64,000 nucleotides of DNA from Streptomyces sp. SAI-127 (GTDB lineage: Bacteria > Actinomycetota > Actinomycetes > Streptomycetales > Streptomycetaceae): assembly GCF_029894425.1 (NCBI RefSeq), contig NZ_JARXYJ010000001.1, positions 6,902,501 through 6,966,500 on the forward strand, written 5' to 3'. Position 1 is the first letter of the stretch, and each line of letters opens with the position of its first letter. Of the stretch, positions 34,762-42,291 are shown in pieces. Made by a program: the position numbers and the translations under genes. The notes below the pieces were generated by a model. It had not been told where the DNA came from, ran no database searches, and saw nothing but the letters and a program-made list of their open reading frames with translations.

Positions 34762-35560
34762 GGTGTCCGGTGGCGTTGGGCTGCTGTGTGGCGGGTGGCG
34801 GGTGGCGGGTGCGTGGTGGGTCGGTGCTCTGGGTGGCGGTGTGTTTCGCGGTGGGTGGCGGACCGGTGGTTGGGAGTGCTCCTGGCGGCTGGTGGGCCTC
34901 CGTGGCGGGGATGCACTCCCTGGCGGGGTGACGTGGCCGACGGCGGGCGGGTCGGTGCTGTGGGTGGGGTGACGTCTCCGTGGTGGCGGTGTGTTTCGCG
35001 GTGGGTGGCGGACCGGTGGTTGGGAGTGCTCGTGGCGGCTGGTGGGCCTCCGTGGCGGGGGATGTAATCCGTGGCGGGGTGGCGTGGCCGACGGCGGGCG
35101 GGTCGGTGCTGTGGGTGGGGTGACGTCTCCGTGGTGGCGGTGTGTTTCGCGGTGGGTGGCGGAGCGGTGGTTGGGAAGTGCTCGTGGCGGCTGGTGGGCC
35201 TCCGTGGCGGGGGATGTACTCCCTGGCGAGGTGGCGTGTCCGGGGGCGGTGGCGTCTGCGTGGGCGGGTCGGTGCTCTGGGCGGGGGCGTTTCTCGTGGC
35301 GAGCGGTGTGACTCGTGGTGAGTGACGAGCCGGTGATGGGGAGTGCTTCTGGTGGCCGATGGGTCTCCGTGCGGACGTTGTTCCCTGTGGCGAAGTGACG
35401 TGTCCGGTGACGGCGGCGCTTTCGGGCCGGTGGCGTCTCCAGGGGCGGCCGGTTCGCATGGGCGACGGACTGGAGACGGGGAGTGCTCCGGCGGCCGGTG
35501 GGCCCCGTGGCGGGCGATGTACCCCGTGGCGGGTGGTGTCGTCCCCGGCCGTGGGTGACG
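34738..35560 (+). repeat. G-rich tandem repeat, ~150-bp units
   Basis: The segment starting GTGTTTCGCGGTGGGTGGCG occurs at 34841, 34991 and 35142, with periods of 150 and 151 bp. The first two full units are nearly identical. The marker GGGAGTGCT recurs at about 34872, 35022, 35172 (with a one-base insertion), 35338 and 35478, so about five units exist, the last two diverged. The phrase at the 3' end of the upstream regulator gene (34738-34761) recurs in each unit. The + strand is strongly G-rich and C-poor, and GGG runs at about 34793-34820 could form a G-quadruplex. No frame is coding-like. Confidence 0.9.
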
Positions 35561-36013: not shown

Positions 36014-36056
36014 GCCGGAATTCCGGCTTGCCGTCCCCCGTCCCACGCGCATCAAT
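36014..36056 (+). promoter_or_regulatory. Promoter and palindrome before the surface-protein locus
   Basis: GCCGGAATTCCGGC (36014-36027) is a perfect 14-bp palindrome. TTGCCG (36028-36033) follows, with ATCAAT (36051-36056) after exactly 17 nt. The related inverted repeat CCGGAAATTCCG comes next at 36061-36072. The -35/17/ATCAAT pattern recurs before the next gene at 36739-36767, which supports a shared promoter type. Confidence 0.5.
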
Positions 36057-36198
36057 GGAACCGGAAATTCCGACGGACCGTCAGATTCAGCTCGCGCGGC
36101 GTCCCGCACCACGCCCGTGAAGCCCGGCCGTCCGTCGGGACGCACCCCCCGTCCATCCCCACATGGCAGTCCCCACCACGGGAAGGGAACCGGATTCC

Positions 36199-36672
36199 AT
36201 GAAAGGCAAGCGCACAGGCACTGGTGCGGCACTGGCCGTCGGCACGCTCGCGGCCCTCGGGCTCGCGTTCGCACCCGCCGCCCTGGCCGTCACCCCGGAC
36301 ACCGCGACCATCGACGCGGACTGTGGCCTCTACGGCAGCGGCGAGGCCACCCTCACCGCCACCCAGGACGGCACCGCCGCCACCGTCACCGTCACCTCGG
36401 CGATCAACGCACCGCTCGCCCTCGACGAGGACTCGATCGCCTCGACCCTCACCTTCGTGAACGCGAACGGCGGCACCACCACCTTCACCGGCACGGAGAA
36501 CCCCGCCATCGCGGCCGGCGACCCCGTCACCGTCGGCCCGCTCAACGGCACCGTGGCGTCCGGCGACAGCCTGGAGTCGTACGGCGGCTCGCTCCAGATC
36601 GTCGTCTTCGGGATCACCGTCACCTGCACGGCGACCGGTCCGCAGTCGCCCGGACCCTTCGTGTTCGACTGA
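36199..36672 (+). CDS. Small secreted protein of unknown function
   Basis: 157 residues with a Sec signal peptide (ALAVGTLAALGLAFAPAALA, cleavage near residue 30) and a Thr/Gly-rich beta-type mature region with two cysteines (DADCGLYGSGEATLTATQDG and VTCTATGP). I do not recognise a named family. Its small, secreted, beta-rich character and its position before a WxL-like protein and a DUF916-like protein suggest a surface or cell-wall role. ATG 36199 has GGAAGGGAA upstream; it is preferred to 36163. Confidence 0.75.
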   Translation: MKGKRTGTGAALAVGTLAALGLAFAPAALAVTPDTATIDADCGLYGSGEATLTATQDGTAATVTVTSAINAPLALDEDSIASTLTFVNANGGTTTFTGTENPAIAAGDPVTVGPLNGTVASGDSLESYGGSLQIVVFGITVTCTATGPQSPGPFVFD

Positions 36673-36692
36673 TCCTCCCGGCACGTCCCGTG

Positions 36693-36734
36693 GTTGCCGC
36701 AGAAACTGACAGCTCGTCAGGTTTCTGCGGCAAC
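36693..36734 (+). terminator. Long hairpin between the first two surface-protein genes
   Basis: GTTGCCGCAGAAAC (36693-36706) pairs perfectly with GTTTCTGCGGCAAC (36721-36734). TGAC/GTCA extends the stem inward with one bulged G, leaving a 5-nt loop. It follows the first gene's stop by 20 bp and precedes a second promoter-like sequence. Confidence 0.75.
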
Positions 36735-36738
36735 TCCA

Positions 36739-36767
36739 TTGACTTCTCACGCGATCCACACATCAAT
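36739..36767 (+). promoter_or_regulatory. Second promoter-like sequence of the surface-protein locus
   Basis: TTGACT (36739-36744), 17 nt, then ATCAAT (36762-36767). The pattern equals that at 36028-36056 before the first gene, including a C just before ATCAAT and a G just after it. The two genes are probably controlled together from separate starts. Confidence 0.5.
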
Positions 36768-36815
36768 GCCCCCTGTCGGCACAGGACTTCAGGAGCTTCC
36801 GGAGGGGGCACATCC

Positions 36816-38132
36816 ATGGGTTCGACGACTCGAAGACGCCGTCTGGCGTCCTTTGTCGGGGCGACCGCGCTCGCGGTCACCGCGGGCGGTGCACTGGCCT
36901 GTCCGGCCGGTGCCGCCACGAACGTGGACTTCGCCACGCACTGCATCCCGCCCGCGGTCGCGGGCATCCCGCCCATCGACGGCACCACGACGGCCGCCAT
37001 CGCCGTGGACAACACCAGCCCCAAGGTGGGCGACACCGTCACCGTGACGTACACGGTGGTCAAGCCGGCCGCCAGCAATCCCACGGCCATCGCACTGCCC
37101 GCCGACATCATGACGCCGACCGGCAAGGTCACCCTCGGCGGCGCCCAGACCGGTGCCGTGACGGTCGCCGGACCGAAGAAGAACGACCCGGTGCCGGGCA
37201 ACGGCGCCTTCCCGTCGTTCTCGATGACCGGCACCTTCAAGGTCACCTCCCCCGGCGCGATCACGCTCTCGCCCGGCGACTACAACATCCACACCAGCTA
37301 CATCCTCGAACTGGACACGCCCTGCACGGTGATCACCCCGCCCGCCCCGGTCTCCGAGACGGTCACCGCGACGGACGCCAACCCCGTCAACGAGCGGGAC
37401 ATCGCGCTGGGTTCGGCCTCCGGGAAGCCCGGCGACAGCGTCACCGTCACCGGCAGCAAGTTCACCCCGGGCGCGACGGTCACCCTGGCCGGGCGGTCCG
37501 GCGCTGCCCAGACCGCGGACACCGCCACCGCGACCGCCGACTCCTCGGGCGCGTTCAGCGGCTCGCTCGTCGTCAACGACAAGACGACGACCGGTGTCGT
37601 GGCGTACGAGGGCAGCGTGTTCAGCGACGCCAAGGGAGCGGGGCCGAAGGCGTACGTCGTCATCGACGACACTCCCGTTCCGGACGGCAGCCAGAAGGTC
37701 ACCACCACGGTGAAGGCGGGCACGCTCTCCATGTCCCAGGCCGGGGACGCCGTCAGCCTCTCGGCGGTGGACTACGGCAAGGGCGGGGCCTCGACCGGTG
37801 ACCTGAACAAGGTGACCGTCCAGGACTTCCGCGGCGGACCCGCCGGCTGGTCCCTCACCGGCAAGGTCACCGACTTCACCGGACCCGGCGCCAAGATCGA
37901 CGCCGGTGCGCTGAGCTGGAGCCCCGCCTGCGCCACCAAGGCGGGCAGCCCGAGCACCTGCCAGGCCGGTTCCGCCGGCGCGGTCGGATCCTCGGGTGCG
38001 ACTCTCGCGTCCACGCCCAACGGCACGCTCACCGGCGGTGAGTTCACCGTGGACGCCGGACTCTCCCTGAACGTACCGGCGTTCACGCCTCCCGGCACGT
38101 ACTCCGGCGTTCTCACCCTCACGCTCAGCTGA
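36816..38132 (+). CDS. Secreted surface protein with WxL-like C-terminal domain
   Basis: 438 residues. A signal peptide (RRRRLASFVGATALAVTAGGALA) is followed by Ig-like/IPT beta domains (SPKVGDTVTVTYTVV; KPGDSVTVTGSKFTPGATVTLAG; SGAFSGSLVV). A C-terminal domain of about 130 residues begins TVKAGTLSMSQAGDAVSLS. It contains GWSLTGKVTDF (W345-S-L) and ends GTYSGVLTLTLS, the layout of WxL domains (first WxL kept, second Trp replaced by Leu). WxL domains bind peptidoglycan in Firmicutes. The next gene encodes a DUF916-like partner, as in WxL clusters. ATG 36816 has GGAGGGGG upstream. Confidence 0.7.
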   Translation: MGSTTRRRRLASFVGATALAVTAGGALACPAGAATNVDFATHCIPPAVAGIPPIDGTTTAAIAVDNTSPKVGDTVTVTYTVVKPAASNPTAIALPADIMTPTGKVTLGGAQTGAVTVAGPKKNDPVPGNGAFPSFSMTGTFKVTSPGAITLSPGDYNIHTSYILELDTPCTVITPPAPVSETVTATDANPVNERDIALGSASGKPGDSVTVTGSKFTPGATVTLAGRSGAAQTADTATATADSSGAFSGSLVVNDKTTTGVVAYEGSVFSDAKGAGPKAYVVIDDTPVPDGSQKVTTTVKAGTLSMSQAGDAVSLSAVDYGKGGASTGDLNKVTVQDFRGGPAGWSLTGKVTDFTGPGAKIDAGALSWSPACATKAGSPSTCQAGSAGAVGSSGATLASTPNGTLTGGEFTVDAGLSLNVPAFTPPGTYSGVLTLTLS

Positions 38133-38181
38133 CCGTACGGGCGCCCGCACCCGCCCGTCCGCCTCTTGGGGGTCCGCACCC

Positions 38182-39132
38182 ATGCGCAAGCTGTACGTCC
38201 TCTTCCTGAGCCTCTTCCCGAGCCTGTTCCTGGTCACCGCCGCCGCACCCGCGCACGCAGCCGACAACGGCAGCTGGTCCGTGTACCCGGCCGCCTCCCA
38301 GATCGCGGCGCGGCCCTACTTCTACCTCTCCGCCGACCCCGGACAGAGCATCGACGACAAGGTGGTCGTCACCAACAAGACCGGTCGGCCGCTGACCTTC
38401 CGGCTCTACGCCGCCGACGCCTACAACACCGCCCGCGACGGCGGCTTCGCCGTGCGTACGGTCGCCGAGAAGCAACGCGGGGTGGGGGTCTGGGCGAAGC
38501 CCGCGAAGTCCCGGGTGACCGTCCCCGCGCACGGCAAGGTCACCGTGCCCTTCATGCTGTCGGTGCCCGAGGGCGCCGAACCGGGCGACCATCCCGGCGC
38601 GCTGGTGGCGCTGGACGAGCGGATCGACAAGGGCGACGGCGCGGTGGCGCTCGGTGTGCAGCGGGCCGTCGCCGCGAGGATCTATCTGCGGGTGGGCGGA
38701 CCGACGGTGCCGGCGATCGCCGTCGAGGACGTCCGCGTCAGCCACCACCAGCCGCTGGTACCGGGGTTGGGGGACAGTGGTGCGACGATCTCGTACACCC
38801 TGCGCAACACCGGCAACGTCACTCTGAACCCGAAGGTGGAGCTGCGGGCCACGGGGTTGTTCGGGCGTACCTTGCTCGCCCGCGAACTCGCCAGAATCCC
38901 GGGGGAGTTGCTGCCCGGGCAGCGCGTCCGGCTGAGTGAGCCGTGGCAGGGCTCCCCGCAACTCGACTGGGGCGACGTGAAGTTGACGGCGAGCGCGAAG
39001 GACACACGGGAGTCGGCGAGCGCGTCCTTCTTCGCGTTGCCGTGGCTGGTCGCGGTGGCGCTCGGGGCGGGGGGTGCCGTGGGGACGGTGCTGTTCGTCA
39101 GGGCGCGGCGGGCGCGGACTCCGGTCGTCTAG
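38182..39132 (+). CDS. Membrane-anchored DUF916-like (WxL-interacting) protein
   Basis: 316 residues: signal peptide (YVLFLSLFPSLFLVTAAAPAHA), an extracellular part with WSVYPAASQIAARPYFYLSADPGQSIDDKVVVTNKTGRPLTFRLYAADAYNT that resembles the DUF916 peptidoglycan-binding region, and a second beta domain (ISYTLRNTGNVTLNPKVELRATGLFG). One C-terminal membrane helix (LPWLVAVALGAGGAVGTVLF) ends in an Arg-rich tail. It probably anchors the WxL-like protein at the cell surface. It lies 49 bp after that gene. Its TAG stop shares CTAG with the opposite gene's stop. Confidence 0.75.
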   Translation: MRKLYVLFLSLFPSLFLVTAAAPAHAADNGSWSVYPAASQIAARPYFYLSADPGQSIDDKVVVTNKTGRPLTFRLYAADAYNTARDGGFAVRTVAEKQRGVGVWAKPAKSRVTVPAHGKVTVPFMLSVPEGAEPGDHPGALVALDERIDKGDGAVALGVQRAVAARIYLRVGGPTVPAIAVEDVRVSHHQPLVPGLGDSGATISYTLRNTGNVTLNPKVELRATGLFGRTLLARELARIPGELLPGQRVRLSEPWQGSPQLDWGDVKLTASAKDTRESASASFFALPWLVAVALGAGGAVGTVLFVRARRARTPVV

Positions 39133-41331: not shown

Positions 41332-42291
41332 ATGAGCGTTCGCAGTCAGTCATCCGAGCCGCCGGCATCTTCGGAGGCACCCCACCGCGCCGGCTTCGCC
41401 TGCTTCGTGGGCCGCCCCAACGCGGGCAAGTCCACCCTTACGAACGCTCTGGTCGGCCAGAAGGTGGCGATCACCGCGAACCAGCCGCAGACCACGCGGC
41501 ACACGGTACGCGGGATCGTGCACCGGCCCGAGGCCCAGCTGATCCTGGTCGACACCCCCGGACTGCACAAGCCGCGCACGCTGCTGGGGGAGCGGCTCAA
41601 TGACGTCGTGCGGACGACCTGGGCCGAGGTCGACGTGATCGGCTTCTGTCTGCCGGCGAACGAGAAGCTCGGGCCCGGTGACCGTTTCATCGCGAAGGAA
41701 CTGGCGGGGATCAAGAAGTCCCCGAAGGTCGCGATCATCACCAAGACGGACCTGGTCGACTCCAAGACCCTGGCCGAGCAGCTGATCGCCGTCGACCAGC
41801 TCGGCAAGGAGCTGGGCATCGAGTGGGCGGAGATCGTCCCGGTGTCGGCTACCGCGAACAAGCAGGTCGACCTGCTGGCGGACCTGCTGATCCCGATGCT
41901 TCCCGAGGGCCCGGCGCTCTACCCCGAGGGCGACCTCACCGACGAGCCCGAGCAGGTGATGATCGCGGAACTGATCCGCGAGGCCGCGCTGGAGGGCGTC
42001 CGCGACGAGCTCCCGCACTCCATCGCGGTGGTCGTCGAGGAGATGCTCCCCCGCGAGGACCGCCCCGCCGACAAGCCCCTCCTCGACATCCACGCCTTCG
42101 TCTACATCGAGCGCCCCAGCCAGAAGGGCATCATCATCGGCCCCAAGGGCAAGCGCCTGAAGGAGGTCGGCATCAAGTCCCGCAAGCAGATCGAGGCACT
42201 CCTCGGCACACCGGTCTTCTTGGACCTCCACGTCAAGGTGGCGAAGGACTGGCAGCGGGATCCCAGACAGTTGCGGAAGTTGGGGTTCTGA
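41332..42291 (+). CDS. era: GTPase Era
   Basis: 319 residues: G1 GRPNAGKS (27-34), G2 region QTTRHTV, G3 DTPG, G4 TKTD (the usual N is T, common in actinomycetes) and a C-terminal KH domain with GIIIGPKGKRLKEVGIKSRKQIEALLG. Era binds the 3' end of 16S rRNA and assists 30S assembly; ybeY lies upstream in the same region. ATG 41332 is preferred over 41323, whose ribosome site would be too close. The last 70 bp are duplicated at 42381-42450. Confidence 0.96.
   Translation: MSVRSQSSEPPASSEAPHRAGFACFVGRPNAGKSTLTNALVGQKVAITANQPQTTRHTVRGIVHRPEAQLILVDTPGLHKPRTLLGERLNDVVRTTWAEVDVIGFCLPANEKLGPGDRFIAKELAGIKKSPKVAIITKTDLVDSKTLAEQLIAVDQLGKELGIEWAEIVPVSATANKQVDLLADLLIPMLPEGPALYPEGDLTDEPEQVMIAELIREAALEGVRDELPHSIAVVVEEMLPREDRPADKPLLDIHAFVYIERPSQKGIIIGPKGKRLKEVGIKSRKQIEALLGTPVFLDLHVKVAKDWQRDPRQLRKLGF

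Follow-up and report, generated by a model that had tools for sequence, protein, structure and literature searches.

The WxL/WxLIP system of surface proteins has so far been read mainly as a set of host-binding and virulence factors of gut Bacilli. The WxL domain carries two conserved Trp-x-Leu motifs, and the available text of Hassan and Williamson (PMC9772566) and of Siezen et al. (PMC1534035) describes, respectively, an Asp at W-8 with an Arg at W-6 and an Asp-x-Arg-Gly signature in these domains. For the partner protein, the accessible part of one report (PMC10599100) proposes that the WxLIP helix enters the host membrane. Here we consider a locus from the 10.7-Mb genome of Streptomyces sp. 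SAI-127. The window, meaning the whole stretch of 64,000 nucleotides that was analyzed (GCF_029894425.1, contig NZ_JARXYJ010000001.1, positions 6,902,501 to 6,966,500), holds three plus-strand open reading frames (ORFs), A, B, and C, which span positions 36199-39132; the interval under study starts at 36014, upstream of the start of A. We think it likely that B and C make up a two-component surface-display unit belonging to an actinomycete branch of the WxL/WxLIP system. The basis for this reading is the genes and their homologies, the WxLIP fold of C, the conserved adjacency of the two genes, the motif in B, and the tail of C. A literature search by title and abstract opening, with most subscription papers and supplements outside its reach, found no paper describing the B-C pair in actinomycetes.

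B has exactly one W-x-[LIVMF] motif, W345-S-L347, and its C-terminal end reads YSGVLTLTLS. Because only this motif is present and L435 stands at the position of motif 2, we call B WxL-like rather than a canonical WxL protein. The motif is preceded by Asp-x-Arg-Gly, with D at W-8 and R at W-6, and D337, R339, and W345 do not vary in any of three alignments, which hold 12, 28, and 40 sequences. The Pfam WxL family (PF13731) matches B with an E value of 6.6e-4, at 20.2 bits for the whole protein and 22.8 bits for the domain alone, and a Streptomyces paralogue of B (locus L093) reaches 25.6 bits. We compared a profile of nine Streptomyces WxL-like domains with a second profile, built from six PF13731-matching domains (E value of 0.01 or better) of other genomes in the phylum. 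This one pairwise hhalign comparison gave 97.8% probability (E 6.5e-13) over 131 columns, reaching the C-terminal end. PF13731 was also matched by 21 of 28 diverse relatives scanned singly and by 15 of 18 excised domains. Among loci retrieved through DUF916, a WxL-like ORF whose motif-1 position holds a Trp is present in seven of nine new ones, several of which also entered the model used; a second ORF in locus L033 keeps this Trp and not the D-x-R. Judged by these profile comparisons, the C-terminal domain of B is homologous to WxL domains.

The near relatives of B (120 of the 725 matches listed, down to about 81% identity) belong to Streptomyces where they are named. Most named B orthologues among the matches listed are called beta-xylosidase, which, taken at its word, would make B a secreted enzyme with a WxL resemblance irrelevant to its localization. 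We regard this as very improbable: no glycoside hydrolase domain was detected in B by Pfam, the AlphaFold model of whole B consists of beta domains only (with pLDDT values of 69-92 for blocks of the WxL-like domain), and a few of the listed orthologues are named WxL domain-containing protein. The beta-xylosidase name is probably a propagated misannotation.

The partner gene, C, matches PF06030 (WxLIP_PGBD, formerly DUF916) with an E value of 1.3e-8 and 35.4 bits, against a cut-off of 27.3 bits. WxLIP is the clear best fold for C: residues 29-287 of its model align to 9i25_C, and the alignment covers the second domain despite the lack of a DUF3324 profile match there, while a helix spans residues 288-311. 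According to this model, C has the two-domain WxLIP fold. The named C orthologues among the matches listed are mostly called DUF916 domain-containing or WxL protein peptidoglycan domain-containing. An earlier sequence-only reading of this DNA had described a secreted protein with one W-x-L followed by a membrane-anchored DUF916-like protein, and this description holds, as all the ORFs are present on the plus strand, B has its one W-x-[LIVMF], and PF06030 matches C. Unrelated folds for the C-terminal domain and its partner did not appear in the profile searches. A check of the folds bore out the two-domain WxLIP fold for C and left the fold of the B domain unconfirmed by structure search.

In the source genome, PF13731 and PF06030 each have one match, B and C, and these lie side by side. 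Because both profile matches are the only ones in the genome and adjoin each other, the resemblance to WxL and DUF916 goes beyond chance. We surveyed 121 Streptomyces genomes for the pair, of which 38 have a one-piece full-length B row (split and partial rows were excluded). In 36 of these 38 loci, a C match with the same orientation lies 3' of B, at 45-272 bp from match to match; the exceptions are G326, where B ends 74 bp from the contig end, and G362, which is taken up below. A diverged paralogue of B (about 436 aa, 33-36% identity) adjoins a diverged paralogue of C (43-47%) in the rows examined. A wider set of 80 named loci, the best 80 of 268 relatives, was retrieved with a pattern containing GW-x-L and includes Micromonospora, Actinoplanes, Paractinoplanes, Thermobifida, Nocardiopsis, Embleya, Nakamurella, Agromyces, Dactylosporangium, Streptomyces, and others; a C homologue lies within the examined stretch in 72 of them. 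In a survey of 296 genomes from the phylum, matches to the WxL and DUF916 families occur in 23 genomes each and together in 12, compared with about 1.8 expected (Fisher p 1.6e-9, uncorrected for relatedness), and all 12 have a WxL and a DUF916 match within about 3 kb. B and C are a real, conserved pair.

Several observations weigh against reading this pair as a WxL/WxLIP unit. B falls below the PF13731 cut-off of 25 bits, it has one of the two Trp-x-Leu motifs, and structure searches with the whole B model returned only generic Ig-type matches. The DUF3324/HBD second domain (PF11797) had no match in 40 C homologues at an E value of 0.01. In G362, the C orthologue is on a 4.65-Mb contig with no B before it (L209, G362:C79). 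B itself lies on a separate contig of 3.2 kb, at whose end stands an inverted piece of B (L116, G362:C109), so the pair is either broken or misassembled. In G363, the orthologous C is lost and a B-like sequence remains. Finally, C is missing from the examined stretch in eight of the 80 named loci, two of which end near the gene. The low Pfam score of B and its generic Ig matches are also what would speak for convergent Ig-like sequence in place of WxL/WxLIP homology. We give that explanation very little credence, as B shares the D-x-R-G...W signature and conservedly adjoins C, and the hhalign alignment to the C-terminus, together with the clear WxLIP fold of C, largely refutes it.

The sequence-only reading had also noted that the second Trp is replaced by Leu and took the locus for a divergent version of the WxL system. 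The replacement is as described, L435 being invariant, along with W345, in an alignment of 40 B sequences. Profile homology, DUF916, and the WxLIP fold are in line with a divergent version, but the missing Trp is not peculiar to this locus. At the motif-2 position, none of the 87 WxL-like ORFs of the 80 named loci has a Trp, and their tails read LTLTL, LRLTL, or LTVTL; conservation of the first Trp in these loci is partly by construction, because the retrieval pattern contained GW-x-L. The second Trp is likewise absent from 18 of 18 members of a broader set, among them small WxL proteins from other families of the phylum. Since the absence extends across all relatives examined, the aligned sequences mark it as a feature of the branch, found in every actinomycete relative examined, rather than of this locus. 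The second Trp may have been gained in Bacilli.

How might B and C work together? In the proposed unit, C would be exported with its two beta-sandwich domains outside the membrane, and would be held in the bacterium's own cytoplasmic membrane by the C-terminal helix, with its basic tail in the cytosol. B would also be exported, its single-Trp WxL-like domain docking on the DUF916 domain of C and possibly on peptidoglycan, and its two N-terminal beta domains would be exposed within the cell wall and beyond it. The contact between B and C is proposed by analogy to PDB 9i25; cell-wall binding and a task for the displayed B domains are what we infer for the unit. The last hydrophobic segment has a mean hydropathy above 1.6 in 38 of 40 aligned C homologues, and the tail after it carries a net charge of +2 or more in all 40. 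As a basic tail in this position is the usual sign of a cytosolic C-terminus, that of C would lie in the cytosol. The constancy of this segment and tail could also mean that C is the sole anchor, with the WxL-like domain docking on C only and having no affinity for peptidoglycan, which would leave the unit tethered to the membrane and not bound to the wall. The adjacency of B and C in 36 of 38 loci and the title of PDB 9i25, a WxLIP bound to a long WxL, are in keeping with this. We consider sole anchoring by C possible but lean away from it, since Bacilli WxL domains bind peptidoglycan according to the available text of PMC9772566 and PMC5817068, and some actinomycete WxL-like genes, such as the three in tandem in L135, are found with no C in the examined stretch.

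Fusions with era provide another view of the topology of C. The era gene lies at about 41392-42237 in the window. In eight Streptomyces genomes (G307, G375, G366, G333, G332, G336, G348, and G340; loci L108, L109, and L202-L207), the C frame continues stop-free into era through the junction WSAL[GR]AASGRMARMSDRSPE, and Era has one match in each of these genomes. The era start region (GGGGAGA plus ATG codons) is retained inside the joint frame, and free Era may therefore also be made. C is truncated within the frame in G340 and gone in a ninth genome, G363. The simplest origin of the fusion would be the loss of one stop codon in an ancestor. The in-frame reading would explain the InterPro-derived DUF916-Era fusions in certain Streptomyces that a review, in its accessible part, calls difficult to interpret (PMC10582724). 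If the fusions are translated as read, the WxLIP C-terminus would be in the cytosol, and this would go against the proposal of a helix in the host membrane.

The B-C unit is distantly related to a system described mostly in gut bacteria, and this suggests that the system predates host attachment and extends beyond it. We are evenly divided on a more general proposition, namely that actinomycetes share an ancient single-Trp WxL/WxLIP form that serves to display proteins on their own surface and involves no animal host. WxLIP would then sit as a type I protein in the membrane of the bacterium itself, its C-terminus in the cytosol, as the basic tails and in-frame WxLIP-Era fusions indicate and contrary to the host-membrane proposal, and the second Trp would be a trait of the Bacilli branch that docking does not need. 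A conserved branch in soil bacteria would imply that the system may originally have served for display on the wall of the bacterium itself. Moreover, a natural set of WxL-like domains with no second Trp offers a way to test what the two Trp residues do, and the pair bears on the question of which membrane the WxLIP helix enters.

A small secreted protein had been noted ahead of the pair in the sequence-only reading. Gene A does exist, but it does not encode a small WxL protein, and it accompanies the unit in only some of the loci. It matched no Pfam family above chance level. In 24 of the 38 one-piece B loci, A stands upstream of B with the same orientation, and in five genomes (G313, G362, G366, G367, and G375) A-like genes lie divergently beside other B-like genes. 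Such neighborhoods might point to a three-part A-B-C complex, with A taking the place that the small WxL protein has in Bacilli clusters. This appears unlikely to us: A has neither a Trp nor a WxL match, shows no profile similarity to the N-terminal domain of B, lies away from examined B rows in 37 of the 66 A rows examined, and is separated from B by a hairpin and a conserved B-side element. A is an inconstant neighbor and probably not a component of the B-C unit. The inner hairpin pattern is present in 30 of 30 orthologous upstream regions. The CATTGACTTNT...TCAATG pattern recurs at 29 of 30 orthologous loci and at 35 of the 80 named loci, and the source genome has one copy of it. As these two features stand between A and B, B-C probably has a promoter of its own. 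Upstream of the locus, at 34832-35249 of the window, is a tandem array of 2.8 copies of a 151-bp unit with 94% matches.

Table 1. Positions in the window of the A-B-C genes, their domains and motifs, and the elements between A and B
Feature	Position	Strand	Basis or remark
Gene A, small secreted protein, 157 aa, no Trp	36199..36672	+	Secretion-type N-terminus by eye
Terminator-like hairpin, 14-bp perfect arms (by eye), inner CTGAY...TCAG-type hairpin	36693..36734		Between A and B
Promoter/operator-like element CATTGACTTNT-(15)-TCAATG, inverted repeat CATTGA/TCAATG	36737..36768		Upstream of B
Gene B, secreted large WxL-like protein, 438 aa	36816..38132	+	
B N-terminal beta domain, residues about 36-182	36921..37361	+	AlphaFold strands
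B second Ig-like domain, residues about 190-285	37383..37670	+	Model; single-domain Ig-like structure alignments
B C-terminal WxL-like domain, residues about 302-438	37719..38129	+	Pfam and profile comparison
B motif 1, D337-F-R339-G-G-P-A-G-W345-S-L347	37824..37856	+	
B motif-2 position, Y429-SGV-L-T-L435-T-L437; Leu435 where Bacilli have Trp	38100..38126	+	
Gene C, membrane-anchored DUF916 (WxLIP-type) protein, 316 aa	38182..39132	+	N-terminal signal-type helix, C-terminal membrane helix
C DUF916/WxLIP_PGBD domain, residues 40-141	38299..38604	+	PF06030, 35.4 bits
C second beta-sandwich, residues 178-286, in place of WxLIP second domain	38713..39039	+	Within the 9i25_C alignment
C membrane helix, residues 288-306 (hydrophobic segment), and basic tail RARRARTPVV	39043..39129	+	

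The WxL-like domain is elsewhere joined to HtaA (7 of 28 relatives), GH18, and peptidase domains. The N-terminal domain of B has a relative (36% identity over residues 9-236) in a protein of the same genome (G000:C1:6213694-6214371) whose end is an LAATG-type sorting signal, which we take to be an LAxTG signal of Streptomyces sortases. In L091, the neighbors of the LAATG protein are an LPQTG protein and a membrane protein; this locus (L091:2033-5481, G000:C1 of the source genome), together with L092 and L117, represents a second locus of sortase-type (LPQTG, LAATG) proteins. With C as the query, a C-like protein was found between the sortase-type proteins in the relatives L092 and L117, the one in L092 having no Pfam match. 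That one kind of display domain carries a sorting signal in one protein and a WxL-like domain in another would fit an anchoring task. A third type of Ig-domain membrane protein, its likeness judged by eye (L105:3290-4375, L111:361-1344, and L091:2972-4159), recurs beside WxL-like/DUF916 pairs or their sortase-type counterparts; only the L091 member has a weak neocarzinostatin-family match. In L110:487-4976 (G161), a HupE/UreJ-like gene is followed by a WxL-like protein resembling a metallophosphatase (by eye) and then a DUF916 protein. By eye, this looks like the neighborhoods of Ang-2 genes with DUF916 and metallophosphatase domains reported in the accessible part of a 2025 paper (PMC12537917). 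Fuller clusters occur in other actinomycetes (L095 and L097), with small single-Trp WxL-like proteins (also large ones in L095), one or two DUF916 proteins, and glycoside hydrolase-like genes.

Compared with described systems, B most resembles CscC and other large WxL proteins (PF13731, of Lactobacillales and Bacillales). Like them, it is secreted, has variable N-terminal domains and a C-terminal domain of about 135 residues, carries Asp-x-Arg-Gly before its first W-x-L, and is encoded beside a DUF916 gene; unlike them, it has L-x-L as its second motif and scores below the Pfam cut-off. The 90 residues between Trp345 and Leu435 compare with motif spacings of about 68 in large and 106 in small WxL proteins in the available text of PMC9772566. 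C resembles CscA and the WxLIP proteins of E. faecium (PDB 9i1y, 9i25) in its above-threshold DUF916 domain, in its C-terminal membrane helix, and in its two beta-sandwiches, which superpose on WxLIP over 237 residues. C differs from them in that it keeps the WxLIP sequence NQIDKxxxYFDLK only partly, as QIAARPYFYL, that its second domain is unrecognized by DUF3324, and that no animal host is implied. As in the cscA-D cluster of Lactobacillus plantarum, so far as the accessible text describes it (PMC1534035), cscA- and cscC-type genes adjoin, but this locus has neither a cscB (small WxL) nor a cscD (LPxTG) gene, the LPQTG and LAATG proteins lying elsewhere in the genome (L091). Among actinomycetes, relatives from Micromonospora, Actinoplanes, Thermobifida, Nocardiopsis, Embleya, Nakamurella, and Agromyces share with B a single-Trp WxL-like C-terminus, mostly ending in LTLTL and usually with a DUF916 gene in the examined stretch; they differ from B in their N-terminal domains (HtaA, GH18, peptidases). 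By sequence, B-C is a variant of the known WxL/WxLIP kind, with predicted binding and function.

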